64,000 bases of DNA. Origin: Halalkalibacter suaedae. GTDB taxonomy: Bacteria; Bacillota; Bacilli; Bacillales; Bacillaceae_D. Position numbers and translations under genes: made by a program. The notes beneath the pieces are model-generated. The model had not been told where the DNA came from. It did no database searches and saw nothing but the letters and a program-made list of their open reading frames with translations. Shown piece by piece: positions 4,750 to 20,143 of the stretch; the stretch's first letter is position 1; the number at the start of each line of letters is the position of its first letter. Where the stretch lies: positions 1-64,000 of the forward strand of contig NZ_JAGKSQ010000005.1 of NCBI RefSeq assembly GCF_017939705.1, given 5' to 3'.

Positions 4750-6585
4750 TTACATGACTCGTTTAAACATTTTTTCTAATGAATACGTTGAGAAGTGGAC
4801 AATGATTGGTCTTCCATGTGGACATGTAAAAGGATCACTACTTTGGCGTAACGATTCCAATAGAGCAAACATTTCATCCTGACGCAGATGTCGATTCGCT
4901 TTGATAGATGCTTTACATGACATCATAATTGCAGCCTCTTCCCTAAGCTTAGCTAAATCAATTCTGCGATGTGCAAGCAAATAATAAATAATTTCTTGAA
5001 TGGTTTCTTCCTCATGTCCCTTTGGAAGCCAATTAGGATGGGACCTAACAATAAACGCTTGGTGTCCAAAGGGTTCCAAAAAGACCCCAACTGCTTCTAA
5101 TTGATCAATATGCTCGCTGATAATACCCATTTCCTGAGAAGTAAATTCAAACGTAATCGGGACTAGAAGCTCCTGCACATGAGGTTGAACCTCAGCTACT
5201 TTTTCTCGAAAGAACTCATATTTAATTCGTTCCTGAGCAGCATGCTGGTCAATAATATACATCCCTGTTTCATTGTGGGCCACAATATAAGTTCCGTGCA
5301 TTTGGCCAATTGGATAGAGGGTTGGTACTCTTTCTGTTTCGTTAGGCTGTTCGACATGTTCAGATTGTTCAATCGTTTCCTCAAGTGGACTCTGTTTTTC
5401 TCCTGTCTTTTTAGCCTCTGGTTGTTCTTGAACCGGAGTAAAATCAATGAGTGATTCAACAGATTCCTGCTCGAATTCTCTATGCTCCTTAACCTGAAAA
5501 GCAGCGTGCTTTTTCGGTTCTTCAAAGCTAAAGCTAATTTGTTCATCTCTTTTTGAGTTGAACAGCGTCTGTTTTTTCGGGTCTGCTTCAGGAATTAACG
5601 TTTCTTTTTTGAAAGCCTGTTTGATTGAACTTGTAATTAACTGTGCCAACTCTTCTTCTTTACTTAATCTCACCTCTAATTTCGCTGGGTGAACATTGAC
5701 ATCTATTAGCTGAGGATCCATTGTAATCGACATGACCCCAATAGGGTAACGACCGATTGGTAATAAGGTATGAAATCCTTCTTGAACTGCCCTTGCTAAT
5801 GAATAATTACGGATATATCTGCCATTTACAAACAAAGACATATATTGTCGTGAGGCTCGGGTAATCTCAGGCTTTGCCATCAATCCACTAATTTGATAAT
5901 CAAGAGATGTTCCCTCAATCTCGACCATATGCTTTGCAACATTCCGCCCATAAATAGATGCAACCACTTGTGCTAGGTCGCCGTTGCCTGCTGTTTTTAA
6001 GACCTCTTTGCTATCATGATAGTATTCAAACGAAACCTCAGGATGTGCCATTGCCAGGCGATTAATAATATCACTTATATTACCAGCTTCAGTATGGACG
6101 GTTTTGACATACTTTAAGCGAGCTGGAGTATTGTAAAAAAGGTTAGTAACAACAATTTCTGTTCCTTTACGAGCATGTGCGGCCTTTTTTTCGATTACTT
6201 TGCCACCATGGATAACAATCTCTGTGCCTTTGCCATCACCTGTTGCCGTAGTCAATGTCACATAGGAAACGGATGCGATACTCGGAAGGGCTTCCCCTCG
6301 AAACCCTAACGTTGAGATATGGAACAGGTCGCGATCAGATTTGATCTTACTTGTCGCATGCCGAAAAAAAGCTGTTTCAACATCTTCTTCAACCATTCCT
6401 TCTCCATTATCTACCACACGGATCTGGGATAACCCACCTTCTTCTATCTCAACTAAAATGGTCGTGCTTCCGGCATCAATTGCATTCTCTACTAGCTCTT
6501 TTACGATCGAGGCAGGCCGTTCGACAACTTCTCCGGCTGCAATCTTATTCGATAGGGCATCATCTAGCTTAATAATCTTTGTCAT
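4750..6585 (-). CDS. mutL: DNA mismatch repair protein MutL (endonuclease type)
   Basis: MutL couples mismatch recognition by MutS to strand incision. The 611-residue protein has an N-terminal GHKL ATPase (about 1-330, with [25 protein letters not shown]-type motif I, DNGEGM, and GFRGEAL), an acidic linker (about 330-420) and a C-terminal dimerization/endonuclease domain. The nicking-endonuclease motif [12 protein letters not shown] begins at residue 446, and the ACKASIKA and CPHGRP metal-site motifs follow, so this is a nicking MutL as expected in an organism without MutH. It starts 12 bp after the mutS stop. A polar run in the linker is the only low-complexity part. Confidence 0.98.
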
Positions 6586-6597
6586 CGAACCCCTCCT

Positions 6598-9192
6598 CTA
6601 CTTTAATAAACGCTGAAGCTCATTCACAAACTGAATGGCTTCAATTGGTGTCATATGAAGGACATCCTTTTCTAGCAGCTTATCCGCAATCTTGTCTGCA
6701 GCAGCATGTCCCTTCTTCTCTTTCTTTTTCAATTGTGGCTGCTCTTCTTCAAACAATGTCAGCTGTAAGCCAGGAGCTGGTTCCTCTTTGACTTGTGTCT
6801 TAGTTGAGAAACTTGATGACTCTAATTCCTTAAGAAGGGCATCAGCTCTCTTTGTCACTGCTTCTGGAAGTTCAGCAAGTTCGGCAACATAAATACCATA
6901 GCTACGATCAGCTTGTCCATCAACAACCTTGTGCAAAAACACTACCTTGCCATTCTCCTCAACAGCTGAGACATGAACATTTTGTAAATCAACTAGGCTT
7001 TGATCAAGCTGTGTCAATTCATGATAGTGAGTTGAAAATAATGTCTTCGCTCGAATCGTATCATGAATATATTCAATAATTGCCTGAGCGAGTGCCATCC
7101 CATCATAGGTTGATGTTCCTCGACCAATCTCATCAAGTAAAATCAGACTATTTTCCGTTGCTTTCGTTAATGCATAACGGGTTTCTAGCATTTCTACCAT
7201 GAACGTGCTTTGCCCACTTGCAAGGTCATCCGCTGCTCCTATCCTTGTAAACACTTGGTCAAATATCGGGAGTTCAACCTCACTTGCCGGCACATAGCAG
7301 CCAACCTGAGCCATTACTGCAATTAGAGCCAGTTGTCGCATGTATGTGCTCTTACCTGCCATGTTCGGTCCAGTAATTAGCAGCATATCTCTGCCTTGTT
7401 TCATTAACACATCATTTGCAACATATTGTCCCTTTTTAATAACGGTCTCAACAACTGGGTGCCGTCCTTCTTTTATATGAATCGTCCGATCGTTTGAAAA
7501 GGTTGGACGCACATAGCGCTGGTCTTCACTAACTTTCGCAAAACCAGCAAGAACATCGATTTCACTTATTGAATGTGCAAGCCCCTGAATATATGTTAAA
7601 TAGCGTTTCGCTTCCTCTCTTACTTCAACAAAGAGCTCGTATTCTAGTAGCTCCATTTTTTCTTCAGCTTCTAAAATAAGTGATTCTTTTTCTTTTAATT
7701 CTTCTGTTATATATCGTTCAGCATTTGTTAATGTTTGTTTTCGCTCATATCGTCCTTCAGGTAATAGATGTACATTAGCTCTTGTTACTTCAATGTAATA
7801 GCCAAATACGCGGTTATAGCCAATTTTCAGCGTTTTAATCCCTGTTTCAAGCTTCTCCTTTTGTTCAAGCTCTGCTATCCACTTTTTCCCGTTTCGACTA
7901 GCATCACGAAACGTATCGAGTTCCGCATTGTAGCCTTCCTTAATCATCCCACCATCCGTCACGGAAATAGGCGGATCGTCTACTAGGCTTCGCTCAAGAA
8001 GATCGAGAAACTCTTCCATTCTTTCCTCTTCCTTAAACCAGCTGTCGGTCTTCATTGGAACGATTTCCTGACAACGTGCTTGAATGGAAGGAATTTGCTG
8101 CAACGATCGCTTTAGCTGCACGAGTTCTCTTGCATTGACACTTCCGTAGGCAATTCGACCAGCCAAGCGCTCCAAATCGTAGACATGTCTAAGCTCATCT
8201 CTTAATTCTTCTCGCCCAAAAAAGTTTTCTGTAAATGAAGTGACAACTGACAGTCTATCTTCAATTAATGACTGGTCTAACAATGGACGATCAATCCATT
8301 TTTTCACTAAGCGTCCACCCATTGCTGTTACTGTTTGATCAATAACAGCTAGAAGAGAACCCGCTTTTTTCTTTTCCCTTAATGACTCAGTTAACTCAAG
8401 GTTTCGCTTTGTATGTGAGTCCATTTTCAAGAAAGAATCACTAGAATAATAGGTAACCTTCTGTAAATGGGTTAATGATCTCTTTTGTGAGCGAACAAGA
8501 TAATTTACTAATCTCGCAAAGCTTTGTACTAGTTGATCAGATTGCAAGCTTTCACATAGATGAGCATAATTAGTATCAACCGTTGTTTCATCCTCATATG
8601 AAATCGTCACAAGCTGTCTCTGTTCAATTTGCTCTAGGCAAGTCTTATCGAGTGTAGAAGCGACAACAAGTTCTTTCGCTCCTGAGTTAGCGATCTCGTG
8701 AATAACTTCTTCAATTTCACCAATGAGTAGCGTTACTGCACACTCACCTGTAGTTAAATCCGTGCGTGCAAGACCATATGAACGATCATCAAACATCGTC
8801 AAAGCAAGAAGATAATTGTTCTCTTTTTCCTTGATGATATTCCCGTCCATAACGGTTCCTGGTGTGAGAAGTTTAACGACCTCTCGTTTTACAACACCTT
8901 TCGCATGCTTGGGGTTCTCAACTTGTTCGCATAATGCAATCTTGTAGCCTTTTTCGATCAATCTAGACATATACGTATCTGCCGAATGGTAAGGGACCCC
9001 ACACATCGGAATTCGATCTTCCCCTTGTCCCCTGCCAGTTAACGTAATTTCTAATTCTTGTGCTGCTAATTTTGCATCGTCAAAGAACATCTCATAAAAG
9101 TCTCCGAGACGAAAAAATAAAAAGGCATCTGTATACTGTGCCTTAATTTCTAAGTATTGTTTCATCATTGGGGTTTGTGTTTGCTGTGTCAT
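6598..9192 (-). CDS. mutS: DNA mismatch recognition protein MutS
   Basis: MutS binds mispaired bases and signals to MutL. The 864-residue protein has the N-terminal mismatch-binding domain with the GDFYEMF motif (Phe-x-Glu wedge), connector, core, clamp and C-terminal ATPase with Walker A GPNMAGKST (608-616), LLDEIGRGTST Walker B and STHYHEL. The C-terminal tail ends in a short helical dimer/tetramer-type segment. The start chosen is the ATG at 9192, with GGAGG 6-7 bases upstream. A longer ORF begins at 9228, but that ATG lies within the -10 box of the promoter at 9227-9235 and cannot be in the transcript. Confidence 0.98.
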   Translation of the reverse strand: MTQQTQTPMMKQYLEIKAQYTDAFLFFRLGDFYEMFFDDAKLAAQELEITLTGRGQGEDRIPMCGVPYHSADTYMSRLIEKGYKIALCEQVENPKHAKGVVKREVVKLLTPGTVMDGNIIKEKENNYLLALTMFDDRSYGLARTDLTTGECAVTLLIGEIEEVIHEIANSGAKELVVASTLDKTCLEQIEQRQLVTISYEDETTVDTNYAHLCESLQSDQLVQSFARLVNYLVRSQKRSLTHLQKVTYYSSDSFLKMDSHTKRNLELTESLREKKKAGSLLAVIDQTVTAMGGRLVKKWIDRPLLDQSLIEDRLSVVTSFTENFFGREELRDELRHVYDLERLAGRIAYGSVNARELVQLKRSLQQIPSIQARCQEIVPMKTDSWFKEEERMEEFLDLLERSLVDDPPISVTDGGMIKEGYNAELDTFRDASRNGKKWIAELEQKEKLETGIKTLKIGYNRVFGYYIEVTRANVHLLPEGRYERKQTLTNAERYITEELKEKESLILEAEEKMELLEYELFVEVREEAKRYLTYIQGLAHSISEIDVLAGFAKVSEDQRYVRPTFSNDRTIHIKEGRHPVVETVIKKGQYVANDVLMKQGRDMLLITGPNMAGKSTYMRQLALIAVMAQVGCYVPASEVELPIFDQVFTRIGAADDLASGQSTFMVEMLETRYALTKATENSLILLDEIGRGTSTYDGMALAQAIIEYIHDTIRAKTLFSTHYHELTQLDQSLVDLQNVHVSAVEENGKVVFLHKVVDGQADRSYGIYVAELAELPEAVTKRADALLKELESSSFSTKTQVKEEPAPGLQLTLFEEEQPQLKKKEKKGHAAADKIADKLLEKDVLHMTPIEAIQFVNELQRLLK

Positions 9193-15540: not shown

Positions 15541-15569
15541 ATTTTAAATGCCGTTACAGATAATGTCAA
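15541..15569 (-). promoter_or_regulatory. Strong sigma-A promoter of rny
   Basis: On the minus strand, a perfect -35 TTGACA (15564-15569) and -10 TAAAAT (15541-15546) are separated by 17 bases. The -35 box overlaps the stop codon of the ATPase C-half gene, so rny can be expressed independently of the module upstream. Transcription would start near 15534, giving a leader of about 115 nt. Confidence 0.85.
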
Positions 15570-16237
15570 GCGCTGTCAATTTTAGTAACCTCACTTACTC
15601 CATCTCTAATAGATACCTCATAGGCCAGATCACCAGATTGGGCTAAGTGATAGTTATGGGTAATCATGATTATTTGTCTATTAAACATCGTACTTAATGA
15701 CTTTAAAAATTCGTATAATGAGTACACATAATCACCTGAAACATGCTTTCCTGGCTCATCTAATAGCAAAGGACCCGTTTTTCTTGGATGAATTGTTTCG
15801 ATGATCGCGACTCTAAGAGCAAGTGTAACAATGTCAACAACTCCCCCACCTCTTGAATCTTGTGGTCTAGTTTTGACTTTTATTCCTTCATATTCGGAAA
15901 CGACATAAAATTCAGCGATTGGTTTATTGCCATGTTCATCTAATTCAATCTGAAATGAAAATAACGGACCAAAGACATACTGCAGGGCATTTGTGACGAG
16001 TGTCTCAATTTGTTGCTTTGCCTGTTCACGTGCAAATTCAGCTGACTGCTGCAACAATACTCTAGCTTTTTCATACGTATCAACTGTCTCGAAATAGGAA
16101 TCTAACTCTGCTATTTTTTGTGAGAGCTGTTCTTCTAGTAAGTTCTTCTTAGCGTCAAGGCGATTCCATTTCGTAAGGGCATTTTGATAGCGAGCCTGTA
16201 AGTTGCGAAGTTGTTCGTCAACATTACCATTATTCAT
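15566..16237 (-). CDS. Split SbcC/Rad50-type ATPase, C-terminal half
   Basis: This 223-residue protein has a charged coiled coil at residues 1-75 and then the C-terminal lobe of an SMC/Rad50-type ATPase. Visible motifs are a signature-like SRGGGVVDIVTLALR (128-142), Walker B GPLLLDEP (145-152) and an H-loop ITHN (192-195). There is no Walker A; that motif is in the separate protein encoded at 16492-17916. The ATG overlaps the stop of the 82-residue coiled-coil gene by 8 bases (ATGAATAA), which suggests translational coupling. I infer that the two halves assemble into one composite ATP site, as the lobes of Rad50 do. The signature is GGG rather than the usual SGGE/SGGQ. I know of no named family for it. 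Confidence 0.8.
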   Translation of the reverse strand: MNNGNVDEQLRNLQARYQNALTKWNRLDAKKNLLEEQLSQKIAELDSYFETVDTYEKARVLLQQSAEFAREQAKQQIETLVTNALQYVFGPLFSFQIELDEHGNKPIAEFYVVSEYEGIKVKTRPQDSRGGGVVDIVTLALRVAIIETIHPRKTGPLLLDEPGKHVSGDYVYSLYEFLKSLSTMFNRQIIMITHNYHLAQSGDLAYEVSIRDGVSEVTKIDSA

Positions 16238-16478
16238 TTTCGATCAGTTCCTTTGGTATAAGTGCCCATGTTTCTTTTAATGCTTGCTCAATGTCTTGCT
16301 CAAGCTTTTCGATTTCATTGTCAAGTTCTTCTGGTTTCACACCAAGTTCCTGCAGCTCTAGTAATAGCCTACTTTTTTGATTTTCGAGCTCTTCTAATTT
16401 AGCCTCTGCTCGGTAACGCATGTCACGTGCCTTATCAATTGCTTTTTTTATTTGTGCTATTTGCTGTTCTACAGTCAT
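16230..16478 (-). CDS. Small coiled-coil protein of the split SbcC/Rad50 module
   Basis: This 82-residue, highly charged protein is almost entirely alpha-helical heptad sequence, with a GVKPEEL turn near residue 46 that may mark a hairpin between two helices. The ATG at 16478 has AGGGGAGG seven bases upstream; earlier in-frame ATGs at 16484 and 16505 are too close to or upstream of that site. It begins 13 bp after the stop of the N-terminal ATPase half and overlaps the C-terminal half by 8 bp. I infer that it provides part of the returning coiled-coil arm or bridges the two halves. No catalytic motif is visible, and I do not recognise the family. Confidence 0.72.
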   Translation of the reverse strand: MTVEQQIAQIKKAIDKARDMRYRAEAKLEELENQKSRLLLELQELGVKPEELDNEIEKLEQDIEQALKETWALIPKELIENE

Positions 16479-16491
16479 CGTCATTCCTCCC

Positions 16492-17916
16492 CTATTTTGG
16501 GTCATGCTTGCAGATCGATTGACCACAAGTTGGACAAGACCCTTGTTCAATTAAATATTGTTGGAGCCGCTGTTCCTCTTCTTCTTGTTCATTTATTTGC
16601 AATTGAATATACCTTTTGCCATTTTCCATTCGCTTTTCATAATCACGTAGTTCGAGAAGCTTTGTTTGGAGCTCCAAATGTTTCTGGACCTTATTACTCA
16701 AACGCTCTTCATTTTTCATGACTACTTCAATTGAGGGTAGTTTCTCTGTTAAACGATCTATTTGACTACGTTGATTGACAATTTGTTGTAATTGACTTTT
16801 CACATTTGAAAGTTGCTTTAGTCTTTGGCGTTGAACGTTAATTGCCTCAATCGTCTCTTGATCTATTTCCTTTAAAAATAATGTTACTGCATTTTGATCA
16901 TGAGATTTCCTCTCTTCTTCATTGATTTCTTTCGATTGGGAATGTTTTAGTTTCAACGTTTTCATGAGACTTACTTGCTGTTGCAGCCATTCAAACTGTT
17001 GATTAGCTGTACTGATTTGGTCGGTTTTTTTGATCCATTGCATACAGACATTACTATTTTTTGTTAAATCCTTTTTTTGCTGAGCTTTTGAATCTAACAT
17101 TTTAAATCTAACAATCTTATTTTCCAATGAAAGCAGTTGTCGCTCCCATTGATCGACATTTTGGACGAGTTGTCTTCTTTTGGTGGTAAACTCTTCTTCT
17201 GTCTTTAATTCTAGTTTTTTAACTCTTAGTTGCTCTAGTGTTTTTTTTCGATCAACTAATTGAGTGATTGTCTTAATGTTTTCTTCTGTTAAGTTAAGTT
17301 TTTCTTTCATTTCAGGAACACTAGCATATGGTTGGAGTTCTTCTTTCAAAGAATCGACTGCTTCTTGTTCACGTTTCATTCGCTGATTTAATTGTGAAAC
17401 ATCCTTAGTCGTTTCACGAATAGCCATATCTAAAAAATGAGCACCACTTATTCGACCAAGTGTCTTTGCTCGAACCGAACTTGTTTGTTCAAGCAAAAAT
17501 GGTCCATCAAGCTGCTGTGATAAATGAATCGAGAGCTCATGATCTGTATCGATTCGCATATGCCCCATTCCATGTGCTTCTAATACCTCAATCGGTACAT
17601 GAATCCCAAATCCTTCAAGAATGAGGTCCTCCTTCTCAGGCTGTCTAATTGTATAACGATTCTTTGATGACGTACGCTCCCTACTTATTTCGGTTCCGTT
17701 ATCAAATGTCACTGTCACTCGAACAAAATCACCAGACACCCGGATAAAGTCCGTTCCTCTCGGCTGATTATATAAAGCCCAGCGAATCCCTCTTAAAACA
17801 GCTGTTTTACCACTGTCAGATTGACCGACCAACACATTTAACCCTTTGTCAAATTCAATATAGCTATCTAAATGTGATTGAAAGTTCTCTAATCTAACTG
17901 AATGGATATTAGTCAT
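16492..17916 (-). CDS. Split SbcC/Rad50-type ATPase, N-terminal half with terminal zinc hook
   Basis: This 474-residue protein opens with an SMC/Rad50-type N-lobe: VRLENFQSH, a Walker A P-loop GQSDSGKT (31-38) and RWALYNQPRGTDFI. A coiled coil spans roughly residues 165-458, and the protein ends ten residues after a zinc-hook-like CPTC (461-464). In ordinary SbcC/Rad50 the hook is central and the chain returns to a C-terminal lobe; here the chain stops at the hook and the C-lobe is a separate gene. The ATG at 17916 (ATGACTAA) overlaps the phosphoesterase stop by 8 bp and has GGAAGG/GGAG upstream; an ATG three codons earlier lies on the ribosome binding site itself. The ATP-binding role is confident; the split assembly is inference. 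Confidence 0.82.
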   Translation of the reverse strand: MTNIHSVRLENFQSHLDSYIEFDKGLNVLVGQSDSGKTAVLRGIRWALYNQPRGTDFIRVSGDFVRVTVTFDNGTEISRERTSSKNRYTIRQPEKEDLILEGFGIHVPIEVLEAHGMGHMRIDTDHELSIHLSQQLDGPFLLEQTSSVRAKTLGRISGAHFLDMAIRETTKDVSQLNQRMKREQEAVDSLKEELQPYASVPEMKEKLNLTEENIKTITQLVDRKKTLEQLRVKKLELKTEEEFTTKRRQLVQNVDQWERQLLSLENKIVRFKMLDSKAQQKKDLTKNSNVCMQWIKKTDQISTANQQFEWLQQQVSLMKTLKLKHSQSKEINEEERKSHDQNAVTLFLKEIDQETIEAINVQRQRLKQLSNVKSQLQQIVNQRSQIDRLTEKLPSIEVVMKNEERLSNKVQKHLELQTKLLELRDYEKRMENGKRYIQLQINEQEEEEQRLQQYLIEQGSCPTCGQSICKHDPK

Positions 17917-18895
17917 AATCTCCATCCTTCCATTGCTCCTGGATCACGGTCATCCTTCTAAGAGCTTCTTGTTTCACTTTCTCTTCTACCTCTTTAAGCG
18001 AAGCAATCTCTTGAATAATATCAGCCATTTGTAATGTTTGAAACTGTGATGATGCTTTAATTTGTTGAACAAAGCTATGCAATTTCTCTTCCTGATGAAC
18101 AGCCTTTTCTAAAAATGTACGGTCGAGGACATCATCCCCTTTTTTAGCACATTTGATGTATCTCTCTTCTAACGAAATTCCTGCCTTCGTTACATTCCCT
18201 ATGATTACCTTTGGCATTCTACTAATCTCAGACCAGTGATTATTTACTCTGCTTAAAGCCCCAGGATTACAGATAAACTTTCCATTACGCTCTTTAATCC
18301 CAAATCCACCATGATAATGTCCAGTTAGGATAATATCTGCAGGGGTTCCCCAAATATGATCAATTATTGTATGGGCAACACCTTCTGGCAATGCTTTCTC
18401 TACAAGCATACTATGAACAATATGAATGAGTACATCTGCATTGGTCTCATTACTAGGGTAATAGTCTAGCTTAGGGTCTCTTTGGTCTAAATCATAATGG
18501 TAGGGCTGTCCACTAATTTGAACTCTTACCTCATCTTCAAACAATAGTGGGTTATGCGGCCCAATTACATTCATCACACCAAATGAATCCATTAACCCTA
18601 GCATTGTTCTAGAAATGGTTTCTGGATTATGTCCAAACGTATCATGATTTCCGGCTACGACGTATATAGGCATTTGTGCTTTTTTAAAGATTTTTGCAAA
18701 CTGTCCCACAACATTCGGAGATAGATCTGGTCGATCAAACACATCCCCTCCATGTAATAGTAGGTCAACTCTTTCTTCATTCGCTATGTCAACGACCTCA
18801 TTAATTTTTTCTTTTAATGTATCAACATAGACATCTAAGCGATTCTTAGGGGTTGTTCCTCTTATATGGGTGTCAGTAACATATAAAAATTTCAT
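17909..18895 (-). CDS. SbcD/Mre11-type DNA repair phosphoesterase
   Basis: This 328-residue calcineurin-like phosphoesterase resembles SbcD/Mre11/T4 gp47 nucleases. All metal-ligand motifs are present: DTH (8-10), GGD (49-51), GNHD (82-85), HS (161-162) and GHYHG (192-196). The C-terminal 90 residues are helical and could be the ATPase-binding tail. It is the first of four coupled genes that make a nuclease plus three-part ATPase. The ATG at 18895 was preferred over a GTG four codons upstream because GAGAGGTGG lies eight bases before the ATG and MKFLYVTDTH is the family-like N-terminus. It follows recA, with only a hairpin between. Confidence 0.85.
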   Translation of the reverse strand: MKFLYVTDTHIRGTTPKNRLDVYVDTLKEKINEVVDIANEERVDLLLHGGDVFDRPDLSPNVVGQFAKIFKKAQMPIYVVAGNHDTFGHNPETISRTMLGLMDSFGVMNVIGPHNPLLFEDEVRVQISGQPYHYDLDQRDPKLDYYPSNETNADVLIHIVHSMLVEKALPEGVAHTIIDHIWGTPADIILTGHYHGGFGIKERNGKFICNPGALSRVNNHWSEISRMPKVIIGNVTKAGISLEERYIKCAKKGDDVLDRTFLEKAVHQEEKLHSFVQQIKASSQFQTLQMADIIQEIASLKEVEEKVKQEALRRMTVIQEQWKDGDYD

Positions 18896-18917: not shown

Positions 18918-18948
18918 TGAAAAGAATAAGCACCTAAGGTGCTTATTC
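18918..18948 (-). terminator. Terminator/attenuator hairpin between recA and the SbcCD-like module
   Basis: Arms 18924-18935 and 18937-18948 are perfect 12-bp complements around one base. On the minus strand the stem is followed by TTTT then CAGG, a short U-tract. I find no promoter between this hairpin and the phosphoesterase start, so some read-through from recA would be needed to express the module. Confidence 0.7.
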
Positions 18949-18965
18949 TCTCATTGAAGATCTAT

Positions 18966-20129: not shown

Positions 20130-20143
20130 CGAACATTTATTCG
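20130..20143 (-). promoter_or_regulatory. LexA (DinR) operator upstream of recA
   Basis: The minus strand reads CGAATAAATGTTCG, which matches the Bacillus SOS box CGAACnnnnGTTCG at 9 of 10 fixed bases. It sits immediately upstream of the recA -35 box. LexA bound here would repress recA and possibly the downstream split ATPase module. Confidence 0.85.

Follow-up and report, generated by a model that had tools for sequence, protein, structure and literature searches.

A Mre11–Rad50-type module of Halalkalibacter suaedae with its predicted Rad50 encoded by three genes

Four adjacent genes between recA and rny of Halalkalibacter suaedae very probably encode a Mre11–Rad50 (SbcDC-type) DNA-end-processing complex in which the Rad50 part is built from three chains; we place the probability of this reading at about 0.86, with assembly and activities as predictions. 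The genes lie in a window of 64,000 nucleotides, positions 1 to 64,000 of contig NZ_JAGKSQ010000005.1. A preliminary description of the window had read them as a Rad50-like ATPase of three polypeptides accompanied by its nuclease, and this reading is supported by the motifs, by profile and fold comparison, by a fixed gene order, by a split point kept in 122 of 122 proteins and by natural fusions.

The four genes, A to D, are intact minus-strand open reading frames at 15566–18895. Gene A (17909–18895) encodes a Mre11/SbcD-type phosphoesterase of 328 aa with the motifs DTHI, GGDVFD, GNHD and TGHYH. Gene B (16492–17916; 474 aa) encodes a Rad50 N-lobe, with Walker A GQSDSGKT and a Q-loop, continued by a long helical arm. 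Gene C (16230–16478) encodes a helical protein of 82 aa with a conserved LGVxPEEL turn and adjoins gene D (15566–16237; 223 aa), a Rad50 C-lobe with signature SRGGG, Walker B LLLDEP and H-loop ITHN. Genes A and B overlap by 8 bp, as do C and D, and 13 bp separate B from C. The preliminary description of the gene set was accurate: the phosphoesterase gene is intact, matches Pfam Metallophos and conserves its metal ligands, the N-lobe chain carries Walker A and stops just past CPTC, the 82-residue and C-lobe frames follow, and the spacing is as tight as claimed. Against relatives, dN is 0.11–0.45 and dS is mostly saturated; the dN of gene C, 0.12–0.15, indicates a real gene under purifying selection. 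Every piece of the module has its own start and is under purifying selection.

All Mre11 phosphoesterase motifs (D-x-H, GD, GNHD, H and GHxH) are present in gene A and conserved in its family. In a 29-row alignment D8, H10, D51, H84, H161 and H195 are invariant, and N83, D85 and H193 are conserved in at least 90% of rows. The profile searches proposed in the preliminary description assigned gene A to Metallophos, with 54 bits, and gene B to AAA_23. Against the NCBIfam SbcD model TIGR00619 gene A scored 39.5 bits, under the curated cut-off of 77.65 bits. Its profile matches the Mre11 structures 4hd0 and 1ii7, and its C-terminal helices occupy the position of the Rad50-binding domain.

Genes B and D correspond to the two halves of a Rad50 head. 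Gene B maps to the start, and gene D to the end, of the archaeal Rad50 models of NCBIfam. Rad50 chain 3aux_A is matched by the gene B profile over the N-lobe (residues 3–222) and by the gene D profile over the C-lobe (residues 172–368); the gene D profile also matches 1ii8_B. In a separate profile match, the last 60 residues of gene B align with the Rad50 zinc-hook constructs 6zff and 1l8d. Foldseek paired gene B with 9a9j_A and 1ii8_A, and gene D with 9a9j_B, 1ii8_B and 1f2u_B. In these crystals (9a9j, 1ii8 and 1f2u) the head is built of separate N and C chains, and genes B and D fall on complementary chains of the same structures, which suggests that the two proteins would form a composite ATP site. 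AlphaFold2 predicts gene D (pLDDT 90.7) as a helix at 3–89 followed by the C-lobe, leaving about 80 residues of helix ahead of the lobe, and gene B (pLDDT 81) as a head plus helices from 159 to 458. In family alignments G31, G36, K37, Q135, C461, P462 and C464 of gene B, and G130–G132, D160, E161 and H194 of gene D, are invariant. Two features count against the Rad50 assignment: the signature of gene D is SRGGG rather than LSGGE, and its D-loop reads GKHVS. Mre11–Rad50 complexes have their two lobes joined by an antiparallel coiled coil in a single chain, and at every family locus of the module each lobe has a gene of its own.

The break in Rad50 lies at a constant place. The CPTC of gene B sits 10 residues from the C-terminus, the chain ending CPTCGQSICKHDPK, and in 122 of 122 N-lobe proteins of bacteria and viruses the chain terminates 2–32 residues past CxxC (CPxC in 121), indicating that the break is fixed just behind the hook. 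Judged by sequence, the motif is of the zinc-hook type and is predicted to bind zinc. The arm leading to it is modular: across the family its hydrophobic positions recur at exactly 47 residues (z 32), with harmonics at 94 and 141, and the spacing between Q-loop and CPxC falls into clusters near 278, 325 and 371, in steps of 47. Forty-seven residues make 13 turns of α-helix. The period was not found in 19 conventional SbcC arms. It is a property of the family, the gene B coil of the window by itself giving no significant 47-residue signal. We considered that the arm of B might run out and back within B as an internal hairpin. The window's lengths agree with this, but family arm lengths step by single 47-residue units and not by pairs, and the predicted breaks give no constant difference between outward and returning parts. 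The helix of gene D and gene C together supply about 155 residues, which fits the shortest arms but not the arm of gene B in the window (about 290).

Gene C is 23–79% identical to 35 relatives. In 97 loci it shares its strand with gene D, at a distance of no more than 50 bp in 83 of them, and most of the diverged phage loci that lack a profile match to it have a helical frame of 75–106 aa directly upstream of D. It was not detected anywhere in the genomes that encode an armless single-chain enzyme (described below), which indicates that C goes with the arm. A stoichiometry of one gene C protein per 47-residue repeat was rejected, as the hydrophobic-pattern match was 0.38 against a null mean of 0.51 from SbcC coil segments. 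The PDB matches of gene C were designed proteins and generic coiled coils, and carry no meaning.

The gene set is conserved as a unit. A–B–C–D followed by rny is identical in the 20 family loci inspected, from seven genera, with an A/B overlap of 8 or 14 bp, and recA lies upstream in 19 of them, the remaining locus beginning at a contig edge. No close relative has a fused SbcC gene here (0 of 20 loci), and the C-lobe gene, present in 36 of 36 sampled genomes of the window's family, always has an open frame of 221–251 aa. The preliminary description had asked if the four genes form a fixed set; all four were found by profile in 97 of 135 loci, and most of the others have a C-like frame directly upstream of D. 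No split C-lobe gene was found in 24 genomes of the order's other families, one weak match in an SMC-sized frame being disregarded. Further afield, the module occurs in Tissierellia, Halanaerobiales, other Bacillota and many phages. Even sampling of the phylum (398 genomes) gave 60 genomes with a split C-lobe in addition to the present one, called at E 2e-38 or better with an open frame below 300 aa and well separated from RecN-sized matches (1e-13 and weaker). The genome scan found the recA–module–rny arrangement in Halalkalibacter, Shouchella, Natroniella, Tissierella, Anaerosalibacter, Aedoeadaptatus and MAGs; the module adjoins recA in Peptoniphilus and is present without adjacent recA in Tumebacillus and a Syntrophothermus MAG.

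IMG/VR holds 170 relatives, 80 of which were read, and annotated phages with relatives include vB_BboS-125, Microcystis phage Mvi-JY20 and Microbacterium phage Magritte. The order is A–B–C–D in 45 genome loci and mostly B–C–D–A or B–A–(C)–D in viral loci. In a quick, midpoint-rooted tree of A, the B head and D, the 56 cellular A–B–C–D rows group in a single clade with SH-aLRT 96, distinct from the phage clades; five genome loci with the order B–C–D–A group inside the phage clades and are likely to be prophages. In Bacillus phage vB_BboS-125 (NC_048735.1) the interval between gp36 and gp37 holds an unannotated, intact Mre11-type gene (L009:6956–7936) whose 326-aa product is 34% identical to gene A, and an AP2-domain gene separates the N-lobe gene from the small gene.

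The preliminary description also expected a conventional, addAB-linked sbcDC elsewhere in the genome. A conventional sbcDC does exist, at 71–75 kb of contig C2, with SbcD next to an SbcC frame of 1044 aa, but the addAB linkage does not: no frame of addA or addB length lies in the surrounding 18 kb. That the module comes in addition to sbcDC is true of this genome, but most module-bearing genomes have no detected SbcC. With SbcC called by TIGR00618 at E 1e-20, it was found in 2 of 60 genomes of the phylum that carry the module and in 164 of 337 that do not (Fisher p 4e-13), from two scored candidates per genome and among genomes that share ancestry and are thus not independent; counted by family, the figures are 4 of 26 and 67 of 113 (p 5e-5). 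Both SbcC-positive bearers (G150 and G410) have the phage-type gene order, and deeper scoring of 53 module-bearing genomes found SbcC only in the present genome and G410. Genomes of family f48 have either the module or SbcC. In the window's family 29 of 36 genomes lack SbcC and 7, including this one, have both, and SbcC is present in 21 of 24 genomes of the order's other families. This distribution indicates that the module most likely replaces SbcCD, usually though not always. In many of the sampled Bacillota both SbcC and the split module seem to be absent, which may reflect a further form or insensitivity of the search.

The position behind recA bears on expression. A perfect 12-bp hairpin stem with a short T tract (18923–18949, minus strand) lies between recA and gene A. 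The 27 bp from this hairpin to the start codon of gene A leave no space for a separate promoter, so the module is probably expressed by read-through from recA or from a promoter within recA; in several Tissierellia-type loci recA and gene A are only 1–6 bp apart. Upstream of recA is a LexA-type box, CGAATAAATGTTCG (20130–20143, minus strand), which precedes recA in nearly all family members. Of 44 loci, 25 have a LexA-type box with at most one mismatch ahead of recA, against 0.4 expected. These boxes suggest that the module would be induced together with recA in the SOS response.

Fusions tie genes A, B and D together. At L082, L087 and L138/L139 Mre11 and the N-lobe are fused in one chain and the C-lobe is separate. 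In three genomes of family f72 (L197–L199), one of them possibly Desulforudis audaxviator, Mre11, N-lobe and C-lobe form a single chain of 684–700 aa, and coil, hook and small protein are absent. These three are nested inside the split cellular clade, indicating that they are secondary fusions. L082, which may be Bacillus phage 0305phi8-36, has its C-lobe in a frame of its own and looks like a split-type complex; if the identification is right, the P-loop segment that was not observed in the 0305phi8-36 fusion (PMC3175470) would be the separate C-lobe frame at 5953–6663. That phage belongs to the set of Mre11/Rad50 fusions already known (Yoshida et al. 2011, PMC3175470), which resemble the module as another wiring of the same domains but differ in having Mre11 fused to Rad50.

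The module shares its Mre11 metal ligands, N- and C-lobe motifs and CPxC with the SbcDC and Mre11–Rad50 complexes of bacteria and archaea and with T4 gp47/gp46. Unlike these, it has a Rad50 in three genes with a chain that stops just past the hook, a separate helical protein of 77–100 aa and, in contrast to SbcC arms, an arm of 47-residue repeats. The P. furiosus Rad50 crystals 1F2T, 1F2U and 1II8 likewise have one head in two chains, but there the division was engineered, whereas in the module it is natural. PHROGs holds relatives of gene B (phrog_16465, 1e-63), gene C (phrog_18563, 2e-7) and gene D (phrog_15167, 3e-64) as three separate families, labelled exonuclease, unknown function and ATPase and not marked as one Rad50. 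SbcC/SbcD are reported to be near-universal in jumbo phages, and a split is not mentioned in the parts of that source on which we draw (PMC7824862). We found no description of a split, bipartite or fragmented Rad50 or SbcC in the open-access papers searched.

Could the locus instead be a broken allele, an sbcC split by frameshifts or an internal deletion and retained by chance? The intact conventional SbcDC of this genome would allow it, but the same three-way split recurs at all 20 family loci, in other orders and in phages, and it comes with the invariant end past CxxC, the separate starts and the selection on every piece. Conservation of the split across the phylum refutes this explanation, and we give it practically no weight. 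An anti-phage defence system of the Lamassu type, with a LmuB-like SMC ATPase and a nuclease effector in place of housekeeping repair, is suggested by the PADLOC LmuB model, which matches gene B (1.6e-19) and, more weakly, gene D. LmuB, however, is one chain and the lobes of the module are in separate genes, its nuclease is of the Mre11 type with an intact active site, and the single conserved neighbourhood between recA and rny, the exclusion of SbcC and the many phages that carry the module also speak against defence, which we consider improbable.

A specialised accessory complex working beside SbcDC, for example in phage-like recombination or sporulation, and domesticated from prophages, would account for the phage relatives, usually ordered B–C–D–A, and for the family genomes that retain SbcC (7 of 36). 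It is nevertheless unlikely, since the cellular A–B–C–D loci are a supported clade of their own, spanning several classes, and the module is the only Mre11–Rad50 complex detected in most of its bearers. The preferred reading is thus a SbcDC-type complex with a divided Rad50. We are inclined, at somewhat better than even odds, to go further and see in it a distinct class of such complexes, in which Rad50 is permanently broken behind the hook, a dedicated third subunit is added and the arm consists of 47-residue modules; this class would stand in for SbcCD across much of Bacillota and would once have collapsed to a hookless, armless single chain of about 690 aa.

In the complex that we propose, gene B would provide the N-lobe with its Walker A and Q-loop, the arm that leads out and the zinc-hook motif. 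Gene D would provide the C-lobe (signature, Walker B and H-loop) and, ahead of it, the final ~80 residues of the arm on its way back, while the gene C protein may be a helical subunit dedicated to the arm. The B and D lobes would combine into a single ABC head of the Rad50 type. A pair of these heads with two Mre11 subunits is predicted to clamp DNA ends upon ATP binding, and hydrolysis would let the Mre11 nuclease act. Zinc shared by two B chains at their CPxC ends could link one complex to another or join both arms within a complex. Placed directly behind a recA that is presumably under SOS control, the module would stand in for SbcCD in most of its bearers.

The common view is that Rad50 and SMC proteins require a single chain that runs out along the long coiled coil and returns. 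A natural, widespread Rad50 ending at its hook would test the need for the returning strand in signalling between tip and head, and its N-lobe with arm, C-lobe and small subunit would be separately mutable parts. The armless single-chain form would show if the enzyme can do without arm and hook altogether. Finally, genomes scored as SbcCD-negative may carry the split form, annotated as a metallophosphoesterase, an AAA ATPase and a hypothetical protein.
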